A DNA stretch of 64,000 bases from Spartinivicinus marinus (GTDB lineage: Bacteria > Pseudomonadota > Gammaproteobacteria > Pseudomonadales > Zooshikellaceae), in contig NZ_JAPJZK010000001.1 in NCBI RefSeq assembly GCF_026309355.1, positions 3,926,501 to 3,990,500 of the forward strand. The letters run 5' to 3'. Positions 45,657-60,119 of the stretch are shown here, piece after piece. The position numbers and the translations under genes are program-made. The notes under the pieces were generated by a model that was not told the DNA's origin, ran no database searches, and saw nothing but the letters and a program-made list of their open reading frames with translations. How positions within the stretch are numbered: the first letter of the stretch is position 1; each line of letters starts with the position of its first letter.

Positions 45657-46832
45657 TTAGCTAACCCAGTCAATCCTTACACGATAACTGCGCCATGAGG
45701 CATTAGAAAATTTATCTAATGCTTTTTTAGTTAAATTAAATGTTAAAAGATGAGCTAATTTATGGCTATGAAATTTAACCAAATAAAGCCACATTAGCCG
45801 CCTTAATTTTATTTCAATATTTCGGTTATTTGTTTTTTGACTTAGATCGATTAGCTCTTGAATGAAATTTTCTGCCACAACGTTGTTTGGTTTTAAATAT
45901 TTTAGGTGATTAATAATATTAATATCTGGGAAAGCATTCGTTGACTTATTAATTAACTCAAACACTAGTAATGTTCGAATACACTTAGAACACTGTCCAC
46001 AGTTATGATCAACATATCTCCAGCATACTTGTAAGTCATCATGAAATTTTTCTTTTTTGATGATAGCCAGTGTTTTATCAACACGAGATGCTTGCAATCC
46101 ATCATGAAAAACAGCGGTTTTTTCACTACTCCACATCGGATCAACTAATGGATGAGAGCCCCAAGGAATTAAGAAGTTATATGTAAATGAAGAAGGAATA
46201 TATACTTTAGCTAAAGGCAAACTTATCCCAAGTGATGCCATCGTAATGCCATGTTGAAATTCATTGGAAATTTTCTTTTCGTTAATATATTCGCGAATAT
46301 TGTTTTTTATTACAACTAATGTTTTGTTGTGTTTTTTTGCAATATTATTAAGTTTTTCTATGATGGTTTGGTGCTGGTCGGCTGGGTCAAATTGATCAAA
46401 TCCGGTTAAAAAAATGAGATAGTCTATATCGTCTAAGTGTGAAATTAGAGTAAAAGTACTATCAACTCCACCAGAAAAAAAACTACCAGCCTTTAAGGAG
46501 GTAGTTTTATTAGTAGTTATATTTTCTATGGTATCTGTATGTATCTTGATAGGATGCAATTTAGGATTCCAGTTGTGGTATATTTGCTGGATATCATGAA
46601 TTTTTGTTAAGAGTAAGGGAGATATAGTTAATGGCGCTTCAATTATAATATCTTGCTGGCTTACCATCGCTTCTAGAAGAGCTGCACCTAAAAACATCTC
46701 ACCAGGTGATGGTGGGGATATAGCTTTTGGTATCTCAAACCAAATTACATCATTATTTAGTTTGGCTGAATGGCGTACGCTACTATCTGAACATTCTGTA
46801 ACATAGTCAGAAATTACTAGCTGTTTTTTCAT
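45657..46832 (-). CDS. PP-loop ATPase, QueC/AsnB-like, unknown substrate
   Basis: 391 aa with the pyrophosphate loop SGGVDST at residues 120-126, so it should adenylate a substrate. The zinc-like site HNCGQCSKCIRT (Cys278, Cys281, Cys284) resembles the C-terminal Cys cluster of QueC-type enzymes. The N-terminal 110 residues match nothing I know. It faces oppF and lies downstream of a Wzx-like flippase gene on the same strand, which hints at modification of a surface glycan or of a natural product. Function open. Confidence 0.7.
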   Translation of the reverse strand: MKKQLVISDYVTECSDSSVRHSAKLNNDVIWFEIPKAISPPSPGEMFLGAALLEAMVSQQDIIIEAPLTISPLLLTKIHDIQQIYHNWNPKLHPIKIHTDTIENITTNKTTSLKAGSFFSGGVDSTFTLISHLDDIDYLIFLTGFDQFDPADQHQTIIEKLNNIAKKHNKTLVVIKNNIREYINEKKISNEFQHGITMASLGISLPLAKVYIPSSFTYNFLIPWGSHPLVDPMWSSEKTAVFHDGLQASRVDKTLAIIKKEKFHDDLQVCWRYVDHNCGQCSKCIRTLLVFELINKSTNAFPDINIINHLKYLKPNNVVAENFIQELIDLSQKTNNRNIEIKLRRLMWLYLVKFHSHKLAHLLTFNLTKKALDKFSNASWRSYRVRIDWVS

Positions 46833-47117
46833 AATATGCCATCTCCTGTCTAATATTCAGCAAGCTATAAGTGATTAAGATTGTCACAGACTGTTATATA
46901 TGCCCCTTTAACAGTAACCATTTTGTATTTTTATTTAAACATACCTATAAAACACACTAAGTGTAGCAATAATATAATTTGCTTGATGAGCGCAAGACAG
47001 TTACTAAGTATAAAAATACATGAGAGGCATATGCTTGTAAGTGTTTACAATATTTATGCTTTTTACTATAGCTGCATCAAGGAGTCATCACAAGGTAGGA
47101 GGTAAAGAGAAGACGAC

Positions 47118-48644
47118 TTATGTACTGAGTCTCAACTTTAGTGCAGATAGCTTAGGCTTAATCAATTGAATGATAATGCTTTCTGCGCCTGTTGTTTTTG
47201 AGCAGTAAGAAGCGTTTTCGCTACTATAGGTAAAATACCATAAGCTAAAATGACAGGCACTATAAACAATCATACCAATAAGGGACATCACAGACATAGC
47301 CAGGAAGTCCATGAAAAAGTTATATTGTAATGGAAACCATTTTGTTAACACTAACAAAGAAGCCATCAGTAAAACAGCTGATAAAGCTGTTCGGGTTAAT
47401 GGCCAAAGTAATTGAAAGACTGGTAAGGAGAGTAATCGACAACTGATGACTAAACTTAACGTTGTACTGAGGATAGCCGTTATAAGAATACTAAGCAGTG
47501 CTTCTGCTATATAACCTTGTACAATAAAGTAGCTGAATAAAGAAATTCTGATTGCACCTTGAATGAATAGAATAGCAGTTACTATGTGAGGTTTTGCTAG
47601 AGCATAATAGATTGATAGAGTTGCTCCTGTGACTAATGAAAATGCTCCAGAAAGACAAAAAATCTTTAACATCCATGATTCACTTAGCCATTTTTCGCCT
47701 AATAAAGTGATAACAAAGTGTTCATTTAGTGCTGCAAGTGTAGTTGCTATTGGTACACCAAAAAATGCAATCATAGCAATACTATTAAGAAAGACTTGAG
47801 CTAATTGGGGTTTGTTATCTGTTAGCTTTGAATAGCCAGGAAATAACGCTTTCTGTATAGGGAGTACTAACTCAACAGTAGTAATATCAGAAATCTCCTT
47901 CATCATTGAATAGTTTCCAAGTACTTTGGTATTGAGTGAGCTTCCAACAATTAGCATCATCAAGCGATTATTTGCATAGAGCAGAATATTTGTAAATAGC
48001 ATCCATTTTGAAAAATTTAACAAACTACGCCAACTCTTCAAGGAAAGAGAAGGGCGATAGTTACTCATAACAAAACTGAGAATCAGTCCTGCTAAGCAGT
48101 TTGTAATCATACCAAAAATTAGAGCCCAATAAGACTTTAATAAAAGGCCTGCAACCACTGTTACTAAAAACGATAGAATTTTTTTGCCGAATTCAAAGTT
48201 AAACTCTTTCTTTAGATTTAGCTCTTTACGAAAATTCACGACACCAATGTTAGTGAACCCTTGTATGATGGCCATGACTGCTAGGCAAAGAAAAATTGCA
48301 ACTAGCTGGGGTTCATTAAACAGGCTTGCGATAGGGTAGCAACCAATCAGTAGGCCTATTGCAATGAATAGCCCCATTAGAATATTTAAGCTCCATGCCG
48401 TATTGTAGTCGTCTTTAGTCGCTTGTTGGTTTTGTATTAACGGTAAATCGAAGTTAAAAGTAGTGACAACATCCAAAATGGCATAAAAGCTCATAGCAAG
48501 TGCAACAATTCCGTAATCTTCAGGAACAAGTAGCCTTGCCATAATAAACAAGCTAACAATGCTTAACAGGCGAACACACAGTCTTAGGACTACCATCCAA
48601 ACTGCTCCAATGCCCATTTTTTTTGTAATATCGGTGTTGCTCAT
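47118..48644 (-). CDS. Wzx-like oligosaccharide flippase (MOP superfamily)
   Basis: 508-aa integral membrane protein with about 12-14 helices. The N-terminus MGIGAVWMVVLRLCVRLLSI and the region EDYGIVALAMSFYAILDVV are typical of polysaccharide exporters. It would flip a lipid-linked glycan repeat to the periplasm. No glycosyltransferase or polymerase lies beside it; only the PP-loop gene follows on the same strand 285 bp later. Confidence 0.87.
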   Translation of the reverse strand: MSNTDITKKMGIGAVWMVVLRLCVRLLSIVSLFIMARLLVPEDYGIVALAMSFYAILDVVTTFNFDLPLIQNQQATKDDYNTAWSLNILMGLFIAIGLLIGCYPIASLFNEPQLVAIFLCLAVMAIIQGFTNIGVVNFRKELNLKKEFNFEFGKKILSFLVTVVAGLLLKSYWALIFGMITNCLAGLILSFVMSNYRPSLSLKSWRSLLNFSKWMLFTNILLYANNRLMMLIVGSSLNTKVLGNYSMMKEISDITTVELVLPIQKALFPGYSKLTDNKPQLAQVFLNSIAMIAFFGVPIATTLAALNEHFVITLLGEKWLSESWMLKIFCLSGAFSLVTGATLSIYYALAKPHIVTAILFIQGAIRISLFSYFIVQGYIAEALLSILITAILSTTLSLVISCRLLSLPVFQLLWPLTRTALSAVLLMASLLVLTKWFPLQYNFFMDFLAMSVMSLIGMIVYSACHFSLWYFTYSSENASYCSKTTGAESIIIQLIKPKLSALKLRLST

Positions 48645-50517: not shown

Positions 50518-51144
50518 ATGAAAGTCCATGAGATTAAGCATCCTTTGGTACAGCATAAACTTGGTTTAATGCGTAAAGAAGGGATTAGTACCAAGGGATT
50601 CCGTGGGTTAGCGAGTGAAGTGGGATGTTTGCTTACTTATGAAGCAACAAAAGACTTGCCTCTAGAAGATAAGGTGATTGCAGGTTGGGCAGGGAATGTG
50701 ACGGTTAAGCAAATAAAAGGCAAGAAAATCACTGTGGTGCCTATTTTACGTGCAGGTCTTGGTATGTTGGATGGTGTATTAGAGCTTATTCCCAACGCCA
50801 AGGTTAGTGTGGTAGGACTTTACCGTAATGAAGAAACCTTAGAGCCTGTACCTTACTTTGAAAAGTTGGTCAGTAATATTGATGAGCGTATGGCGCTGAT
50901 AGTGGACCCTATGTTAGCAACAGGGGGCTCAATGGTGGCTACTATAGAAATGCTAAAAAAAGCCGGTTGCCATGAAATTAGGGTATTAGTATTGGTTGCA
51001 GCACCTGAAGGTATCAAAAAAGTAACAGATGCTCACCCTGATGTAGAAATATTTACAGCATCTGTTGATGAGAAGCTTAATGAAAGTGGTTATATTATTC
51101 CTGGCCTAGGAGATGCTGGAGATAAGATTTTTGGTACTAAGTAA
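50518..51144 (+). CDS. upp: Uracil phosphoribosyltransferase
   Basis: Pyrimidine salvage: uracil plus PRPP to UMP. 208 aa with the PRPP motif [11 protein letters not shown] and the uracil-site region [12 protein letters not shown], all conserved. It is divergent from hpt and has a terminator at 51155. Confidence 0.97.
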
Positions 51145-51154
51145 GATGTAAAAG

Positions 51155-51186
51155 CCTGCAGCGAAAGATATACTTTTCGTTGCAGG
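51155..51186 (+). terminator. Terminator of upp
   Basis: CCTGCAGCGAAA pairs with TTTCGTTGCAGG (12 bp, one G-U), 10 bp after the upp stop, then a short T-run. Confidence 0.7.
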
Positions 51187-51201
51187 ATTTTAGAATAGTT
51201 A

Positions 51202-52923
51202 TTATCCGCCTGTTTTTGGAGAGTTGGTAATCTTTCTACCAATAATTGGTAAATTATTTGAAATTTTTATTGGTCCGTCCGCTATATTGCCTAGATTGCG
51301 ATAAACTATAAGCTCTTTTTCCTGGGCATTATAATTAGAGGGCATTTTAAACCGCTTAACTTCTTTAAACTTATCGCTTCTAAGAACATTTTGTAGCTTA
51401 GCCATTTGATCCAGATCTACCCAAAAATTGGGTTGGGCTACAATGTAGTGAACACCCATTTTATTAATTAAATCATTTATTTCAACTTCACTGTAGCTTT
51501 GTTGTTTAACCCCTAGTGATCGTCGGACTGCAACCTCCAATAACAGCTTGTCTGCACGCAAAATATTTATGTCAGGGCGATTTGATTTGGCTCGCATATT
51601 AAAAATAAATGAGCCATCACGGTAGCCAGAGAATAATACATTACTGTTGTCTGGTGTAACTTCGGCTATATAGTCAACAACATCGCTGTAACCATCTACA
51701 TAATGTACTGGGCGTGAAATAGTGGTTATGGTCAGGGTTAATACCCCAATTAAAATGCAGCTTGTGGCAGCCCATAGTTCTTTATTTTTAAATAGTTTAT
51801 TTTGAAGAGCTCTGTTTTGAAGAGCTCTGTTTTGAAAAGCCCTGTTTTGAAACAAACCTCTTTGAACTAACTTGTTTTGAAATAAATAATGGCACGAAAA
51901 GCCAGCAAATAGAGCGATAGGAAGAAGCAAATAGATACTGTGTCTAGTCTCTTTTAAATCGATAGATGAGTAAAACAGGTATCCTACTATCAACCATGAG
52001 ATTAAAAATAAACTATTATGAATATTGGGTTGAGTAGTGAATGGTGAGAGCCATAGTATAAGAAAAACAGTTGAGATAAGTAGTACAGGCCAACCAACTT
52101 GTGCTGGAAATTGTAATGCATACCAAATCCAGCCGTCAATTGATAGTCTTGAAACAATAGCATCACTAATACCCATTGCAGATTGAACATTTGTTTGCCC
52201 AAACTCAATTGTTAAATATACTAATGGTAAAATTCCTATAATTGCTAGCCCTGCAATGATATAGCTATGTTTATCTCTAATTAGTGAGTATCCTCTGGCA
52301 CTTATTAAGGCAATTAAGTAAGGCAAACAAACAAATGCAATAGAAAGTTTTGTATATATGCCTAGCACTAGTAAGGCAATACTTAGGTATAAGTATGAAA
52401 TACGTTGTTCACGAGTGTATCTGACTAAGAAATAGCTACTCCATACTAAAAAGGCAAAAGCAGGTATTTCTAACATTATCTGACGGCCCCAGTAGGCTAT
52501 TTCTGGAGAAGCGATAATCATGAGTGCTACACCAAAAGATAATGGTGCTGTTAACCATTGGCGAGCTAAAAAATAACATCCACAAGCAAAAAATACATAA
52601 CATATGAAAAGTACAAATAAAGCGGTTTCTTGAGAAACTCCAAAAATTGCATAAAAAGGTGCTAATAAGAAGGAGAAAAGTGGTGGGTAAAATAAAATCG
52701 TGAGAGCTGGGTATTGTGAATAATAATCATAAGCATAAGTGACAGGATCATAAAATGGAGCTGCTCCAATAAAGTCCATTACAAAAGCACCATTTAATGC
52801 ATGGCGTGGTGAATCTGGCCATGAAAAAGCACCGCCAGCAGGTGCTCCCGTCAAAAATAAAAAAGCAACTATGAAGCAAAGTAAAATACAAAAAATGGTG
52901 CTTTGATATTGTCTAAACTTCAT
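51202..52923 (-). CDS. GT39-like (ArnT/PMT-type) membrane glycosyltransferase
   Basis: 573 aa with about ten membrane helices. The first periplasmic loop holds the acidic motif WPDSPRHALNG, then YPALTILFYPPLF, as in lipid-linked sugar transferases of the GT-C type. A periplasmic C-terminal domain (about 400-573) follows. Residues about 347-377 carry a tandem pentapeptide repeat (FQNRAFQNRALQNRALQNK) not expected in the family. Together with the SMR-like and HAD-UbiA genes upstream it may use a polyprenyl-phosphate sugar donor. Confidence 0.8.
   Translation of the reverse strand: MKFRQYQSTIFCILLCFIVAFLFLTGAPAGGAFSWPDSPRHALNGAFVMDFIGAAPFYDPVTYAYDYYSQYPALTILFYPPLFSFLLAPFYAIFGVSQETALFVLFICYVFFACGCYFLARQWLTAPLSFGVALMIIASPEIAYWGRQIMLEIPAFAFLVWSSYFLVRYTREQRISYLYLSIALLVLGIYTKLSIAFVCLPYLIALISARGYSLIRDKHSYIIAGLAIIGILPLVYLTIEFGQTNVQSAMGISDAIVSRLSIDGWIWYALQFPAQVGWPVLLISTVFLILWLSPFTTQPNIHNSLFLISWLIVGYLFYSSIDLKETRHSIYLLLPIALFAGFSCHYLFQNKLVQRGLFQNRAFQNRALQNRALQNKLFKNKELWAATSCILIGVLTLTITTISRPVHYVDGYSDVVDYIAEVTPDNSNVLFSGYRDGSFIFNMRAKSNRPDINILRADKLLLEVAVRRSLGVKQQSYSEVEINDLINKMGVHYIVAQPNFWVDLDQMAKLQNVLRSDKFKEVKRFKMPSNYNAQEKELIVYRNLGNIADGPIKISNNLPIIGRKITNSPKTGG
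51795..51885. repeat. Tandem 15-bp repeat inside the glycosyltransferase gene
   Basis: The unit TCTGTTTTGAAGAGC is repeated about three times exactly or nearly so, with decayed copies on both sides. The unit is a multiple of three, so each copy adds five residues (Q-N-R-A-L type) without breaking the frame. Copy number is likely unstable by slippage. Confidence 0.8.
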
Positions 52924-52989
52924 CTTTATATACCCATCATAAATTATTTTTAGGCGTAAAAATAAAGTGGCATATACTCACGAGTATAC

Positions 52990-53364
52990 TCATGCTGATT
53001 TACCAACTAACACACACCCACAAGCAATAAGAACTGTTCCGAACACTCGGGTTGGTGTTAATGTTTCATTAAGTAGTAATGCGCTAAAAGCCATTGTCAC
53101 CAAGAAGCTGACACCAACAAATGGATAGGCGACAGACAGCTCCACTTTTGATAGTACCCATAACCACATGGCAACACTTAATCCATAAATTATTAACCCT
53201 ACCCAAATAAAAGGAGATATTGCAGCAGCCAGTAGTGATTCAGTAATACTACTTTGCAAAGCAGAGGCCATAGTGGGCTTAGTTACTCCTAGCTTAAATG
53301 CGAGTTGAGCACAAGCAGATAGTGTTACGGTTAGTAAAGTTAAACTGAGAACAAGATATGTCAT
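52990..53364 (-). CDS. SMR/EamA-type small membrane transporter, ArnE/F-like
   Basis: 124 aa with four membrane helices. The pattern ACAQLAFKLGVTKP near the start and the VELSVAYPFVGVSFLVT region match the half-size EmrE/ArnE/ArnF group. It is 12 bp downstream of the HAD-UbiA gene on the same strand and upstream of the GT39 gene. Flipping of a polyprenyl-phosphate sugar is inferred from context. Confidence 0.82.
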   Translation of the reverse strand: MTYLVLSLTLLTVTLSACAQLAFKLGVTKPTMASALQSSITESLLAAAISPFIWVGLIIYGLSVAMWLWVLSKVELSVAYPFVGVSFLVTMAFSALLLNETLTPTRVFGTVLIACGCVLVGKSA

Positions 53365-53376
53365 ATAATAACCTTA

Positions 53377-54825
53377 CTATATTTGAAAGTACTTAGCTGA
53401 AAGTACAACAATAAGAAATCCTAGCCCCACAAGCTGGCTGACTCTGTCTTTTATTGCAAATACAATCGGGTCGTCAGCTATTTTTCCTCGTCGTGCACCA
53501 ACCCATACACGATTACCCCAATAAAGAATTAAAAAACAAAGTATCCATAGCAATTGAGGGCTTTGATATAAACTGATCACTTCTTCGCTATTAATATAAA
53601 GTGAGAGAACTAACACTGAGGCTGTTATATTAGCGATACCTAGGGTAAACATTGTTTCCTGATCAGAAACACTATAGCCTCGCCCAATAGCTTTATTCAC
53701 ACTGTGATTAGTGGCCTCAGAAAGGGAATAAAGTTCAATATAGCGTTTTAGATAGGCCAAACTAACAAAAATAAAAATTGAAAAGCTGAGTAACCAAGAT
53801 GATAAGGCAACACCAATAGCTACTGATCCAGCGACAATACGTGTTGTGTATAGAATAGCAAGTGTCATTACATCAGCAGTTGATACTTGTTTAATGATAA
53901 ATGAGTAAGCATTGATGGCAATGTAATAAAAAATAAGTATTATGAAAAAGGATAAAGGAAGCAGTAACCAGGCAAGTATAAAAGAAAGTAAAGGTAAAAT
54001 AATGGCGCTTGCTATGCCAATCGACAGCGGTAGGGTGCCGGCAGCTAATGGTCTAAATCGCTTGGTGCTATGGCTGCGATCAGCTTCTAAATCTAGCATG
54101 TCGTTTAAAAAATAACCTCCGGAGGCACAAATACTAAAGCAGAAAAAAGCAATTAGAGCAGAAAATGCAGTTGCTGGCTCATAGTAACTGTGGGAGGTAA
54201 ATAAAGGTACAAACACTAACAGGTTTTTAACCCACTGATGTATTCGCATTGCTTTGATGAAGGCAATGCCTGTTGACTGAGTGTGGGTAATAATTTTTTC
54301 TGCTTTCCCATTACGTCTAGCTTTTTCTATATCTTTAATGGGTGCATCTACAAATATGTTTGAATATGCTTTCTGCCAAATGGGACGATCAGCTAAACTG
54401 TCTCCAGCATAAATAAAATCATCGCTCCCGACTATGCTCTGTATGCTTGCTAGTTTATTAGTACCTTTAAGGTTATTTGTGCTATCAGATGCAATCACTT
54501 GATCGAAAATACCAAGGTACTTAGCAACTGTATTTGCAAAGGTTTGGTTTGATGCTGTAGCTAGAATCAGTCGTTTGCCTTGTTTTTTTTGTACTTTTAA
54601 GTAGTCGACTAGCTCAGTTGTATAAGGAAGGCTTTCAACATTGATTTCAACTAAATTGGCTACTTTTGCTTTAGCTAGCTGTCTTCCTTGGAGTAACCAA
54701 AAAAAAATTTGAAAAATATAAAGTGGCTTTTGTTTGATAAGCTTTAGTATGGACTCAAGAAATAAATCGGTACGTATGAGTGTACCATCTAGGTCAACAA
54801 AAATATATTTAACTTCTTTATTCAT
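53377..54825 (-). CDS. HAD phosphatase-UbiA prenyltransferase fusion, DPPR-synthase-like
   Basis: 482 aa from ATG 54825. Residues 1-190 form a HAD phosphatase (DLDGT at 11-15, ATAS, GDSLAD). Residues about 190-480 form a UbiA membrane domain with RIHQWVKNLLV, NDMLDLEADRSH-STKRFRP and LKRYIEL. These last motifs resemble decaprenyl-phosphate 5-phosphoribosyltransferase of mycobacteria (Rv3806c, from memory) more than UbiA for ubiquinone. The predicted pair of reactions is transfer of phosphoribose from PRPP to a polyprenyl phosphate, then removal of the 5-phosphate by the HAD part. Confidence 0.85.
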   Translation of the reverse strand: MNKEVKYIFVDLDGTLIRTDLFLESILKLIKQKPLYIFQIFFWLLQGRQLAKAKVANLVEINVESLPYTTELVDYLKVQKKQGKRLILATASNQTFANTVAKYLGIFDQVIASDSTNNLKGTNKLASIQSIVGSDDFIYAGDSLADRPIWQKAYSNIFVDAPIKDIEKARRNGKAEKIITHTQSTGIAFIKAMRIHQWVKNLLVFVPLFTSHSYYEPATAFSALIAFFCFSICASGGYFLNDMLDLEADRSHSTKRFRPLAAGTLPLSIGIASAIILPLLSFILAWLLLPLSFFIILIFYYIAINAYSFIIKQVSTADVMTLAILYTTRIVAGSVAIGVALSSWLLSFSIFIFVSLAYLKRYIELYSLSEATNHSVNKAIGRGYSVSDQETMFTLGIANITASVLVLSLYINSEEVISLYQSPQLLWILCFLILYWGNRVWVGARRGKIADDPIVFAIKDRVSQLVGLGFLIVVLSAKYFQI

Positions 54826-55196
54826 GATTAATACTCGCAGGCTGACCACTTTGGATTTTCATAAAAATGATTTCTTGCAGGCATGTCACTGCTGTAGATA
54901 TAAAGTTATTTCTATAAAAATAGAAATAATTGGTTGATGAGTATTGAGTACTTATTGAGGTGCTCCTTAATTTTTTTATGATTGATGTGTAGTCTACAAG
55001 ATAATTTCGGCCAGTTAAACTAATACTTTTGCTTAGTTGTTTGTTATTAATATAGCCGATAGATATTAACTGTGTATTTGTGACGAGTTGCTTGTTGAGC
55101 AGTGTTAGCGATCAGTGCATTAATAAAACTGTATTTTATTAATGCGCTGATCCTATTAAAGTTGAGGTGATATATTTTTATTGCTTTTGTATTTAT
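54826..55196. other. Intergenic with long hairpin (55111-55151)
   Basis: ATCAGTGCATTAATAAAA pairs with TTTTATTAATGCGCTGAT (18 bp, one G-U) around CTGTA, 46 bp beyond the aldehyde dehydrogenase stop; probably that operon's 3' terminator. The rest should hold the promoter for the HAD-UbiA gene. Confidence 0.55.
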
Positions 55197-56780
55197 CTAA
55201 TGATTAATATTATGTCTACTTTTTTTGGCTTCGCTCTCTAGTGCCATACCAATTTTGGCAAGCCTGATAAGCTTTGACCAAGAGGATGTAAATAAAGTGT
55301 CAATTAACTGTTGGAATAGTTGATATTTTTTTAAGGTATAAGGATACCAGTTAGGTTCGATTTTATTTGACTGCTTGTCAACTAAAATGGATTTACTTCT
55401 AGTAAATGCAAGCAAACCTTCCTTACCTTTTGCTCGACCGAAGCCACTCTGTTTAACACCTCCAAAGGGCAAAGCAGGGTTTCCCTCAGTTAACATAACG
55501 TTATTAATGGAAACTGCACCCACCTGAAGGGCACTAGCCATTCGTTTGGCTCTGCTAAGGTCTCGACTCCAGATACTTGCACTGAGGCCATAGGGTAATT
55601 GATTTAACTGCGTGACTAACTGTTTTTCATTAGAAAATGGCAATAAAGCAATAACAGGGCCAAAGGTTTCTTCTTTATATAGTTTCATCTCTGGTGAAAT
55701 ATTGGTAATTAGGGTAGGTGGAAAAAACCGCCCCTTTTCATTAAAGGTGTTTCCCCCTGTAATGATAGTTGCCCCTTTTTCAATAGCATCATCCAACTGT
55801 TGTTTGACAATATCTAGTTGAAAATCAGTTGTCATTGCGCCTATATCAGCATCTCCTTGATCCCCTGTGTTAATCACTAACTGTTGTATTTGGGTAGTTA
55901 GCTGTTTGCTAAACTGTTCGAAAATATCCTCATGAACACATAATAACTCTACTGATGTACAGGATTGTCCTGCATTAGTGAGCCCTCCCCATAATGCGCC
56001 TGCTACCGTACGCTGAATATCAACATCAGGGAAAACCACCATCGCATCTTTGCCTCCCAACTCCAAATCGACGGGGATGATATGCTGAGCTGCTTTTTTG
56101 AGAATCGCCTTTCCGGTACGAGTACTTCCTGTAAAAAAAATTTTATCTGGTTTTTCATCAATCAATCTTTCAGCAGTAACACCTGAGCCATAGATGACTT
56201 TTAGGTTTTGTTTTAGTAGAGGGGATACGGCACAAATTTCTTCGATCAGGCCGGTAAGCGGTGTATGCTCAGAAGGTTTAAAGATAATACTGTTTCCAGC
56301 AAGAAATGCTCCGGTAATAAAAGTCATTGCAATATGAAAAGGGTAATTCCAGGGAGCAATCACTAATACCGTTCCATAAGGTTCATGTTGAATATAAGAT
56401 TTCTTGCCAAGTAATGAAATGGGGGTCGAGACTTTATATGCTTTAAGAATTTTGTGAGCGTGGGCCTTATTCCAATGTAAATTATCTAATACTCCCAGTA
56501 CCTCTGAAACAAGGGCATCTGTTCTAGATTTACCTGTGTCTTTGACAATTCTATTGCAAATTAATTCTTTACTGGACTTTATGTGATCGATGATCTTATC
56601 AACTTCTGCTGCACGTTGACGAATTGAAAATTGCTGTAAATCCAATTGAGCTGCTCTCAGTGCGTGATAGATATCTTTGATTGGAGCCGCATCAGTTTCT
56701 TGAATTGTCAGTGGCTTTCTTAATTTAAAATAGTCATCCGTTGGGTGGCTCGGTTGCTGGGATGGAGATTTAGTAGACAT
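55197..56780 (-). CDS. Aldehyde dehydrogenase family protein (coniferyl-aldehyde type)
   Basis: 527 aa. NAD-binding VIAPWNYPFHIAM and FTGSTRTGKAIL, catalytic Glu in LELGGKD, catalytic Cys in NAGQSCTSVE. The overall form resembles class 3/coniferyl aldehyde dehydrogenases, which oxidise fatty or aromatic aldehydes to acids; the C-terminal tail is helical and may bind membranes. It lies 3 bp after the small subunit gene and downstream of the GMC oxidoreductase, so alcohol to aldehyde to acid is the likely pathway. Confidence 0.92.
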   Translation of the reverse strand: MSTKSPSQQPSHPTDDYFKLRKPLTIQETDAAPIKDIYHALRAAQLDLQQFSIRQRAAEVDKIIDHIKSSKELICNRIVKDTGKSRTDALVSEVLGVLDNLHWNKAHAHKILKAYKVSTPISLLGKKSYIQHEPYGTVLVIAPWNYPFHIAMTFITGAFLAGNSIIFKPSEHTPLTGLIEEICAVSPLLKQNLKVIYGSGVTAERLIDEKPDKIFFTGSTRTGKAILKKAAQHIIPVDLELGGKDAMVVFPDVDIQRTVAGALWGGLTNAGQSCTSVELLCVHEDIFEQFSKQLTTQIQQLVINTGDQGDADIGAMTTDFQLDIVKQQLDDAIEKGATIITGGNTFNEKGRFFPPTLITNISPEMKLYKEETFGPVIALLPFSNEKQLVTQLNQLPYGLSASIWSRDLSRAKRMASALQVGAVSINNVMLTEGNPALPFGGVKQSGFGRAKGKEGLLAFTRSKSILVDKQSNKIEPNWYPYTLKKYQLFQQLIDTLFTSSWSKLIRLAKIGMALESEAKKSRHNINH

Positions 56781-58765: not shown

Positions 58766-59237
58766 GATAATATTGTTCTTATTTTTTTATCAGTTATAAA
58801 ATTGTAAATTTGGCACTTTAGTTCAGTCAAAAAAATAAAGCTATCTTTAAATTTAGTCTGAATGGAATATCTTTTATGACAGTTTTATATAGTCTATTTA
58901 TTCGTGATTGATTTTGAGGTGCTTGTAGCTTCATTTTCTAATCAATGGCCTCTCCCACAATTTTGGCTATCGTTTTAACCTTTCTTAAGTGGATATACAA
59001 CTAAAACCACCTAACTAACCAGCTTCAACTGTCTTATCGGGTATAAGTGCTACTGAATTATTATTATTTTTATAAGGAGCTTGTTTGCATATTTTACATA
59101 GGGTGTAAAGTTTGTGCTGATAGTAAACGTAATACGTTGAAATAATTTAACTTTTTAGGGTTGGTACCTTACATGCAATAGAGGATGCACGTAGGCGGCT
59201 TGAAAAGCTATCGTTAATATCCTTGAGGGAAATCCTG
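58766..59237. other. Intergenic, divergent promoter region
   Basis: About 470 bp between the GMC gene and the PEP-CTERM gene. ATTCGTGATTGATTTTGAGG near 58900 resembles an end of the MITE-like family, but the partner end is not clear, so a decayed copy is only possible. No gene seen. Confidence 0.3.
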
Positions 59238-60119
59238 ATGAAGTTAAAATCCTTAGTTACAGCGACCTTATTAGCAGGCGGCATGGTTACATCACTCAGT
59301 ACATCTGCTGCATTATTAACGTTTGATTTAATTGATGGTGGTGAATTTATAAATGCAGTGAATACCAATGGCGACCCTATTCCTGCAACTAATAGTACTA
59401 ATGCAACTCAGACTATCAGTCGCATCTCATGGGGGGGGTCGAATGGTGACTCGAGTAGTTTAGAGTTAACTACTGAGAACCATGTGGAACTTAACTCAGC
59501 AGGTACTTCTGCTCTGTTATCAACCATTAAACATGTAAACAATCCAATCCCTGCACCAACCTTAGATTCTGGGCAAATTTATGGTGTTTTGGAAATGGAT
59601 AGCATGGGTACTTTAAGCACAGCCCATTATAAATTACCAGGTAGTCCAACCTTGGCTGATGTGGCCAATGCGGTATTTACTGAGGCTGGTACGTCATTAC
59701 CAGGAGGCGCTGATATCGATAATACCATTGCTAGTTTATTTAACTTCACTTTTATGGAAACACTAAACTTTCCAGGTGGTGATTGTGACTTTGGGTTGAA
59801 TGGTGACTTGACTCCTCCTTGTGATGATAAATTTATGTCAACACTATTTGGTGGTATTCCAATTCCCATTCAAATTAAGTTACTCATCAATTCAGAAGCT
59901 TACATGCTAACCATTTTCAATACTATTAATGATCCTACCGGTGACATTAATAATGCAATCCTGAGTGTGAATGGTATGGCTGAGTTTATCACTGATGAAG
60001 AAAATATGACTAGTTTGTATACCTTCGCTCAACTAATGTATGTACCTGAGCCTGCCACTTTAGGTATTTTAGGATTAGGCTTGTTAGGTATGGCATCAAG
60101 GAGAAAAATGCTAAGCTAA
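59238..60119 (+). CDS. PEP-CTERM sorting domain protein
   Basis: 293 aa from ATG 59238 (GAGGG about 9 nt upstream). A signal peptide (LKSLVTATLLAGGMVTSLS) and a C-terminal VPEPATLGILGLGLLG followed by a basic tail (ASRRKMLS) are the signature of proteins sorted by exosortase. The middle is acidic, low in charge and N/T/S-rich, with no known domain. No exosortase gene lies in this window. It is probably an extracellular-matrix or surface protein. Confidence 0.9.
   Translation: MKLKSLVTATLLAGGMVTSLSTSAALLTFDLIDGGEFINAVNTNGDPIPATNSTNATQTISRISWGGSNGDSSSLELTTENHVELNSAGTSALLSTIKHVNNPIPAPTLDSGQIYGVLEMDSMGTLSTAHYKLPGSPTLADVANAVFTEAGTSLPGGADIDNTIASLFNFTFMETLNFPGGDCDFGLNGDLTPPCDDKFMSTLFGGIPIPIQIKLLINSEAYMLTIFNTINDPTGDINNAILSVNGMAEFITDEENMTSLYTFAQLMYVPEPATLGILGLGLLGMASRRKMLS

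Follow-up and report, generated by a model that had tools for sequence, protein, structure and literature searches.

A cassette of three genes in Spartinivicinus marinus probably encodes a stand-alone three-component pentofuranose system, in which phosphoribosyl pyrophosphate (PRPP) would be converted to polyprenyl-phosphate ribose that is flipped and then transferred to a surface glycan. The cassette lies within a stretch of 64,000 nucleotides (G000:C1:3926501-3990500 of the 6.88-Mb host genome), which is referred to as the window, and consists of three consecutive open reading frames (ORFs) on the minus strand. They encode a HAD-UbiA fusion, a small transporter and a GT-C type glycosyltransferase, with intergenic gaps of 12 and 66 bp. 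This arrangement, including an ArnE/F-like half flippase and a transferase behind the fusion, is the one described in the original prediction, and it was borne out by Pfam matches to EamA and PMT_2. The features are as follows.

53377-54825, minus strand: HAD-UbiA fusion of 482 aa, predicted polyprenyl-phosphate phosphoribosyltransferase (PPPRS, the synthase) with fused 5-phosphatase (PRP domain); profiles, PDB search, residues, fold and tree
54274-54825, minus strand: N-terminal HAD phosphatase domain of the fusion, residues 1 to about 184, with D11, D13, T90, K124 and D142/D146; Pfam HAD, residue counts and Foldseek
53380-54273, minus strand: C-terminal UbiA-fold phosphoribosyltransferase domain of the fusion, residues about 185-482; phmmer match to 8j8j at 2.7e-33 and Foldseek rank 1
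52990-53364, minus strand: SMR/EamA half-transporter, ArnE/ArnF-like, 124 aa, likely flippase for polyprenyl-phosphate ribose; Pfam and NCBIfam
51202-52923, minus strand: 573-aa glycosyltransferase of the GT-C type containing a PMT_2 domain, likely a periplasmic pentofuranosyltransferase; Pfam and comparisons
51151-55236, strand not assigned: entire cassette as an insert of 4,086 bp; flanks align with Spartinivicinus ruber (G002) on both sides

From these genes we infer the enzyme activity, the lipid, the flipping, the sugar and the acceptor. The UbiA domain would join PRPP and polyprenyl phosphate to a lipid-linked phosphoribose, from which the fused HAD domain would remove the 5-phosphate to yield polyprenyl-phosphate ribofuranose. 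The ArnE/F-like transporter, probably acting as a dimer, would flip this lipid so that it faces the periplasm, where the GT-C enzyme would move the sugar onto a surface glycan. D-Ribofuranose itself is the most probable sugar, since neither a good match to DprE1 or DprE2 in the genome nor an epimerase gene in the cassette was found. The pathway is not new. It was published in 2024 (Kelly et al., PMC11127046), so the novelty is lower than originally supposed, and the cassette is a well-supported further example of the Citrobacter design.

Family and residues of the HAD-UbiA fusion

Both domains of the fusion scored over the curated Pfam cut-offs (UbiA, 51 bits; HAD, 39.6 bits). The NCBIfam model NF006088 matched with 576.5 bits (cut-off 351) and is named only 'UbiA family prenyltransferase', followed by three decaprenyl-phosphate phosphoribosyltransferase models with 157, 140 and 133 bits, under their own cut-offs of 207, 234 and 474. 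A phmmer search of the PDB returned 8j8j (E of 2.7e-33, residues 184-485 of the 490-aa frame) and 8j8k (1.3e-22), both decaprenyl-phosphate phosphoribosyltransferases and the sole UbiA structures listed at E ≤ 1. The AlphaFold2 model of the fusion, built from 43 sequences, reached a mean pLDDT of 93.6, and Foldseek placed 8j8j at rank 1 (TM-score by target 0.83, 28% identity), with other UbiA folds at 0.63-0.72. Phosphoserine-phosphatase-like HAD structures were found for the N-terminal part. In a tree, 12 PPPRS domains separated from 17 rows of UbiA-family paralogues at 100/100, in an analysis where the bootstrap had not settled and the branches of L022 and L030 were near 10, probably owing to wrong frames.

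By profile, PDB search, fold and tree, the UbiA domain belongs with the mycobacterial DPPR synthase and not with the 4-hydroxybenzoate or heme O prenyltransferases, and the structural comparison proposed in the original prediction thus came out in its favor. That the domain is an ordinary prenyltransferase for 4-hydroxybenzoate, heme O or another acceptor, joined to an unrelated HAD domain, is extremely improbable and was rejected. The broad UbiA match and the weak scores of the heme O model (28 bits) and the 4-hydroxybenzoate octaprenyltransferase model (20.7 bits) would fit such an enzyme, whereas the DPPR-synthase models at 133-157 bits, the top rank of 8j8j in both sequence and fold and the split of the tree argue against it, as do two more reading frames, each about 300 aa long, that match the UbiA family elsewhere in the genome.

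The motifs RIHQWVKN (194-201), NDMLDLEADRSH (241-252), KRFRP (255-259) and LKRYIEL (359-365) were located in the fusion, whose DPPR-synthase-like character had been proposed from them. Their conservation was followed in 93 synthase rows, comprising 80 named loci, 12 relatives and the window; the named loci are the best 80 of at least 579 confirmed relatives and not a random sample. N241, D242, D245, D249, R250, K255, R258 and R361 are identical in all 93 rows, and E364 in 92. On the HAD side, D13, K124 and D146 are invariant and D11 varies once. Catalytic roles are presumed for these HAD residues as typical of the family and because D18 of the Citrobacter protein ORF15 is analogous. By motif and residue counts, the predicted catalytic residues of both the DPPR-synthase part and the HAD part are intact. 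Position 142 of the HAD domain is D in 20 of 28 epimerase-free rows versus 8 of 65 other rows, in counts that ignore kinship.

The predicted start of the fusion is an ATG at 54825, with a further in-frame GTG upstream at 54849. No relative was found in viral_contigs, scanned with a single protein and with an alignment, and a tblastn search of phages matched one unannotated 6.6-kb record (residues 178-480, 29% identity).

Transporter and glycosyltransferase

The 124-aa transporter matched Pfam EamA over the curated cut-off (31.2 bits), and its top NCBIfam models were ArnF (48 bits) and ArnE (31 bits), with both cut-offs (99 and 92, respectively) unmet. Its sequence is 69% identical to that of the SMR partner in a Sneathiella metagenome-assembled genome (MAG; L069), which holds the nearest PPPRS outside the genus among the matches listed. 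A gene for a small, putative lipid-donor transporter adjoins the synthase here, as in the three-component design, with the flippase role predicted from the protein family.

The GT-C protein matched Pfam PMT_2 with 64 bits versus a cut-off of 26.1. By sequence searches it is rare. No other genome among the 369 of the class sample held a homologue at 1e-20, and at 1e-15 another 11 of 398 genomes of the phylum sample carried distant relatives (22-29% identity), with no PPPRS, SMR or Dpr match in their loci with flanks of up to 1.5 kb. A plasmid search (tblastn) gave a single 23% match. The sole good relative outside the genus among the matches listed was found in a Methyloprofundus MAG (L140; 42% over 542 aa), where the gene order is PPPRS, DprE1, aminotransferase and then the GT-C relative. 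The protein is also unlike nine multi-transmembrane proteins of 401-618 aa that are encoded next to other epimerase-free synthases: in a blastp comparison with these and one protein near the Sneathiella synthase, the best E value was 0.07, or 0.04 with the copy of the congener G001. Four of the nine were scanned, and L096 and L098 match PMT_2, with no Pfam family matched by L087 and L130. Within the GT-C gene, an in-frame tandem repeat of 15 bp in 3.5 copies lies at 51800-51851; at this site the alignment has a gap of 20 aa for G001 and one of 32 aa for Methyloprofundus.

Epimerase genes and the identity of the sugar

No DprE1 or DprE2 gene was found within the window. Searches of the host genome with one query each gave best matches of 31% over 138 aa for DprE1 and 25% over 190 aa for DprE2, the latter among nine matches to short-chain dehydrogenases/reductases (SDRs; best 2.7e-7). 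Such weak matches are what generic FAD and SDR proteins would give, and arabinose is therefore unlikely as the sugar. With these single queries, the absence noted at first for the locus alone extends to the genome, which had been proposed as a check. One candidate DprE1, at G000:C1:4976380-4977240, was rejected; it has lactone-oxidase domains (ALO, GULLO2-like), is the only ALO match of the genome and has no PPPRS adjacent. This ALO/GULO-type flavin oxidase (L034:8237-9886) is flanked by genes for an RPE65-family protein and for a multihaem-cytochrome-like product.

Epimerase genes were also surveyed beside other synthases. Neighborhood counts were made by tblastn, as the ORF caller gave 'no PPPRS orf' in 17 of the 80 named loci, failing at high GC. 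A locus was labeled for Dpr if a DprE1 match of more than 100 bits lay within 4 kb on the fetched sequence, and no rows were dropped for stops or length. Around the host, at the level of its order, 13 of 56 genomes exceed the synthase family cut-off, its own and G001 included; beside the other 11 synthases, DprE1 and DprE2 are both present in 10 and neither is present in L048. Across the full set, DprE1 was found within 4 kb of the synthase in 64 of the 93 rows and not in 28, with one row set aside at a contig edge. On a tree of the 93 synthases, obtained by a fast search in which SH-aLRT was the sole measure of support, the DprE1 label changes at least 11 times (shuffled mean 24.8), and at least five changes are forced by well-supported branches. 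The synthase of the window groups only with those of G001 and the Sneathiella MAG (56% identity; 100% SH-aLRT), without a deeper placement.

Several observations weigh against the proposed ribofuranose system. The absence of DprE1 and DprE2 from the genome rests on one query each. An SMR match directly follows the synthase in only 8 of 27 epimerase-free loci (26 named loci and L048; tblastn), which means that not all of these loci have the triad; the remaining loci may have diverged transporters or none, and L130 contains a 112-aa frame with four predicted transmembrane segments as a possible diverged transporter. No homologue of the GT-C protein was found in 20.5 kb of the Sneathiella locus, though the SMR gene is present. 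The structure model of the GT-C protein was poor (pLDDT 43.6 from two sequences) and was set aside, so its fold is assigned from the PMT_2 match as the single source. As its closest outside relative adjoins DprE1, the donor accompanying this GT-C lineage may in some cases be something other than plain ribose.

The same machinery could also deliver another sugar, if an unlinked epimerase or reductase converted the lipid-linked ribose to xylofuranose or arabinofuranose before flipping. An unlinked SDR epimerase of this kind is conceivable, as for the xylofuranose of Citrobacter youngae O2, where the single SDR ORF13 switches the donor from ribofuranose to xylofuranose and the GT-C enzyme accepts both (PMC11127046). 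The SDRs of the host genome with weak similarity to DprE2 and the DprE1 gene next to the Methyloprofundus GT-C relative point in the same direction. However, the genome holds no good DprE1 match, its ALO/FAD_binding_4 protein at G000:C1:4976380 adjoins an RPE65-family gene and not a PPPRS, and DprE1, where present, is usually near the synthase. We consider such a conversion unlikely and D-ribofuranose the better assignment.

Comparison with known systems

The fusion resembles mycobacterial Rv3806c in being a phosphoribosyltransferase of the UbiA-fold type, predicted to act on PRPP and polyprenyl phosphate, with the NDxxDxEADRxHxTKRFRP motif shared in the 8j8j alignment and both the KRYxEL motif of the Rv3806c family and the 8j8j fold present. 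Unlike in the mycobacterial decaprenyl-phosphate-arabinose pathway, the predicted phosphatase is the fused HAD domain and not a separate Rv3807c, and DprE1 and DprE2 were not found with the single queries. The transporter of the cassette is ArnE/F-like. ArnE/ArnF and ArnT of lipid A aminoarabinose modification follow a similar logic of a small transporter and a GT-C enzyme with a lipid-linked pentose, but the cassette transporter stays under both the ArnE and ArnF model cut-offs. The aminoarabinose donor of lipid A is made by an unrelated route.

The closest precedent is found in C. youngae O1 and O2, for which Kelly et al. (2024; PMC11127046) described α-pentofuranose side chains that depend on a HAD-UbiA fusion, an ArnE-like transporter and a GT-C enzyme of family GT136. 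The fusion ORF15 was shown biochemically to produce farnesyl-phosphate ribofuranose from PRPP. Its D18A variant was leaky and gave mainly the 5-phosphate product, and the R366A and E369A variants retained activity. ORF12, the GT-C enzyme, which also has a CBM domain, transferred the pentofuranose. For the ArnE-like ORF14, labeled as MATE family by the authors, the role was assigned and not assayed. The cassette shares with this system the order of the HAD (PRP) and UbiA (PPPRS) domains, the small ArnE-like transporter, the GT-C enzyme, the conserved N/D/D/D and R/E residues and the absence of an epimerase, both from the cassette and from O1. Residues of the fusion match N247, D248, D251, D255, R366, E369 and the HAD residue D18 of ORF15 by motif comparison, not alignment. 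With this precedent, the family placement and the HAD residues, the original prediction that the fusion would make polyprenyl-phosphate phosphoribose from PRPP and dephosphorylate it itself is supported by analogy.

According to the same study, DprE1/E2 homologues accompany arabinofuranose, and the authors call the three-component design widespread (PMC11127046). They name PSPA7_6246 as the PPPRS for D-arabinofuranose pilin glycosylation in Pseudomonas aeruginosa PA7, which is likewise a Gram-negative PPPRS proposed for a lipid-linked pentofuranose, but one that serves an arabinofuranose pathway and has no fused HAD domain. Among the papers listed in our literature search, theirs was by title the only one dealing with the pathway.

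Presence of the cassette in Spartinivicinus and its genomic setting

The congener G001 retains all three genes (90, 95 and 90% identity), with their order and location unchanged. In S. ruber, all three are lacking, and 188 bp replace window positions 51151-55236 between the same neighbors, with both flanks aligning. The cassette is an all-or-none insert, and its genes behave as one gained-or-lost unit because one species keeps all of them and the other lacks all of them.

The insert sits apart from polysaccharide genes, between an aldehyde dehydrogenase gene and a gene at 50518-51144 that we take to be upp; this differs from C. youngae in being outside an O-antigen locus. Pfam and NCBIfam scans of neighboring genes identified an aldehyde dehydrogenase, a GMC oxidoreductase and a hypoxanthine-guanine phosphoribosyltransferase, and a MOP-type flippase gene (47118-48644) lies 2.5 kb beyond the GT-C gene. 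The GC content is 0.358 in the cassette versus 0.394 in the window, a modest contrast given 0.403 for the SMR gene and 0.362 for the MOP gene. At third codon positions (GC3), the cassette genes show 0.26-0.28 versus 0.32-0.37 in five measured neighboring genes.

The low GC and GC3, the absence from one congener and the variable tandem repeat in the GT-C gene might indicate a decayed or non-functional island, with the SMR gene not sharing the low GC. This is very improbable, however, as the three frames are open, the catalytic residues are kept and the copies in G001 are 90-95% identical.

Between the convergent presumed upp and GT-C genes, an inverted repeat CCTGCAGCGAAA...TTTCGTTGCAGG was spotted by eye at 51155-51186. 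It could be a shared terminator, although it is absent from the output of the terminator scan. The promoter and terminator scans gave 18 versus a shuffle mean of 15.8 and 5 versus 2.8, respectively, not far from shuffles. Next to the MOP flippase gene (region 45657-47124), the protein at 45657-46832 shows sub-cut-off similarity to QatC/QueC (16 bits) and DUF6395 (17.7 bits), and the gap between the two genes is about 2.1 kb in S. ruber versus 0.29 kb in the window.

Possible acceptors

As a guess, the acceptor could be an XrtA-type exopolysaccharide or glycoprotein. The host genome encodes four Wzy_C proteins, and one of these is the O-ligase belonging to an XrtA exosortase locus that also has its glycosyltransferases. 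An XrtA/PEP-CTERM exopolysaccharide locus on a plasmid of Vibrio alfacsensis includes a PPPRS and an EamA transporter (L168:8010-9799), and the 17.4 kb fetched gave no DprE1 or DprE2 match. In the Methyloprofundus locus an exosortase gene lies 1.8 kb upstream of the synthase. With one query, just 2 of the 92 synthase loci gave an exosortase match. Within the window, a THxN-family PEP-CTERM protein is encoded at 59223-60119 (NF038125, 99.5 bits, cut-off 85), in a region with partly alignable DNA in S. ruber, which is without the cassette.

Aminotransferase-DprE1 loci in relatives

A set of loci (L140:2739-8723; L085:10001-15802; L094:5345-12732; L167:8001-13689; L178-L183) combines PPPRS and DprE1 with aminotransferases of one class III subfamily (64-70% identical), and one query for DprE2 found nothing there. 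The set accounts for 3 of the 92 loci of the synthase search and for the one plasmid record matched at 1e-100. A search of 398 genomes with the aminotransferase alone matched six from three genera, all six with PPPRS and DprE1. An SMR gene and an extended SDR are also present in nine of the ten loci, the exception being L140. At L178:13601-14464, the synthase matches only from query residue 188, and the fused HAD part was not among the tblastn matches.

These loci could make a lipid-linked amino-pentofuranose by amination of the DprE1 keto product. The nearest named models for the aminotransferase were PigE and putrescine aminotransferase, both far under their cut-offs, and a hopanoid HpnO-type enzyme may be an alternative identity. 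None of the papers listed in a literature search on this combination contained DprE1. This operon without detectable DprE2 may be more novel than the cassette.

Implications

A wider interpretation, which we offer only tentatively, is that the cassette would be a mobile, self-contained ribofuranosylation module portable to any host glycan. Its GT-C enzyme would then found a family distinct from GT136, and the GT-C lineage would also serve non-ribose donors, maybe an amino-pentofuranose at the Methyloprofundus locus.

The comparative set is relevant to the question of how lipid-linked ribose derived from PRPP came to be a hub from which different pentofuranoses arise. The pathway was defined only in 2024 (PMC11127046), and the cassette is a further, free-standing example of it that is gained or lost as a unit and lies away from O-antigen genes. 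With two of the Spartinivicinus species examined carrying the cassette and a third with an empty site, this marine genus offers a natural with/without comparison for the sugar and its acceptor.

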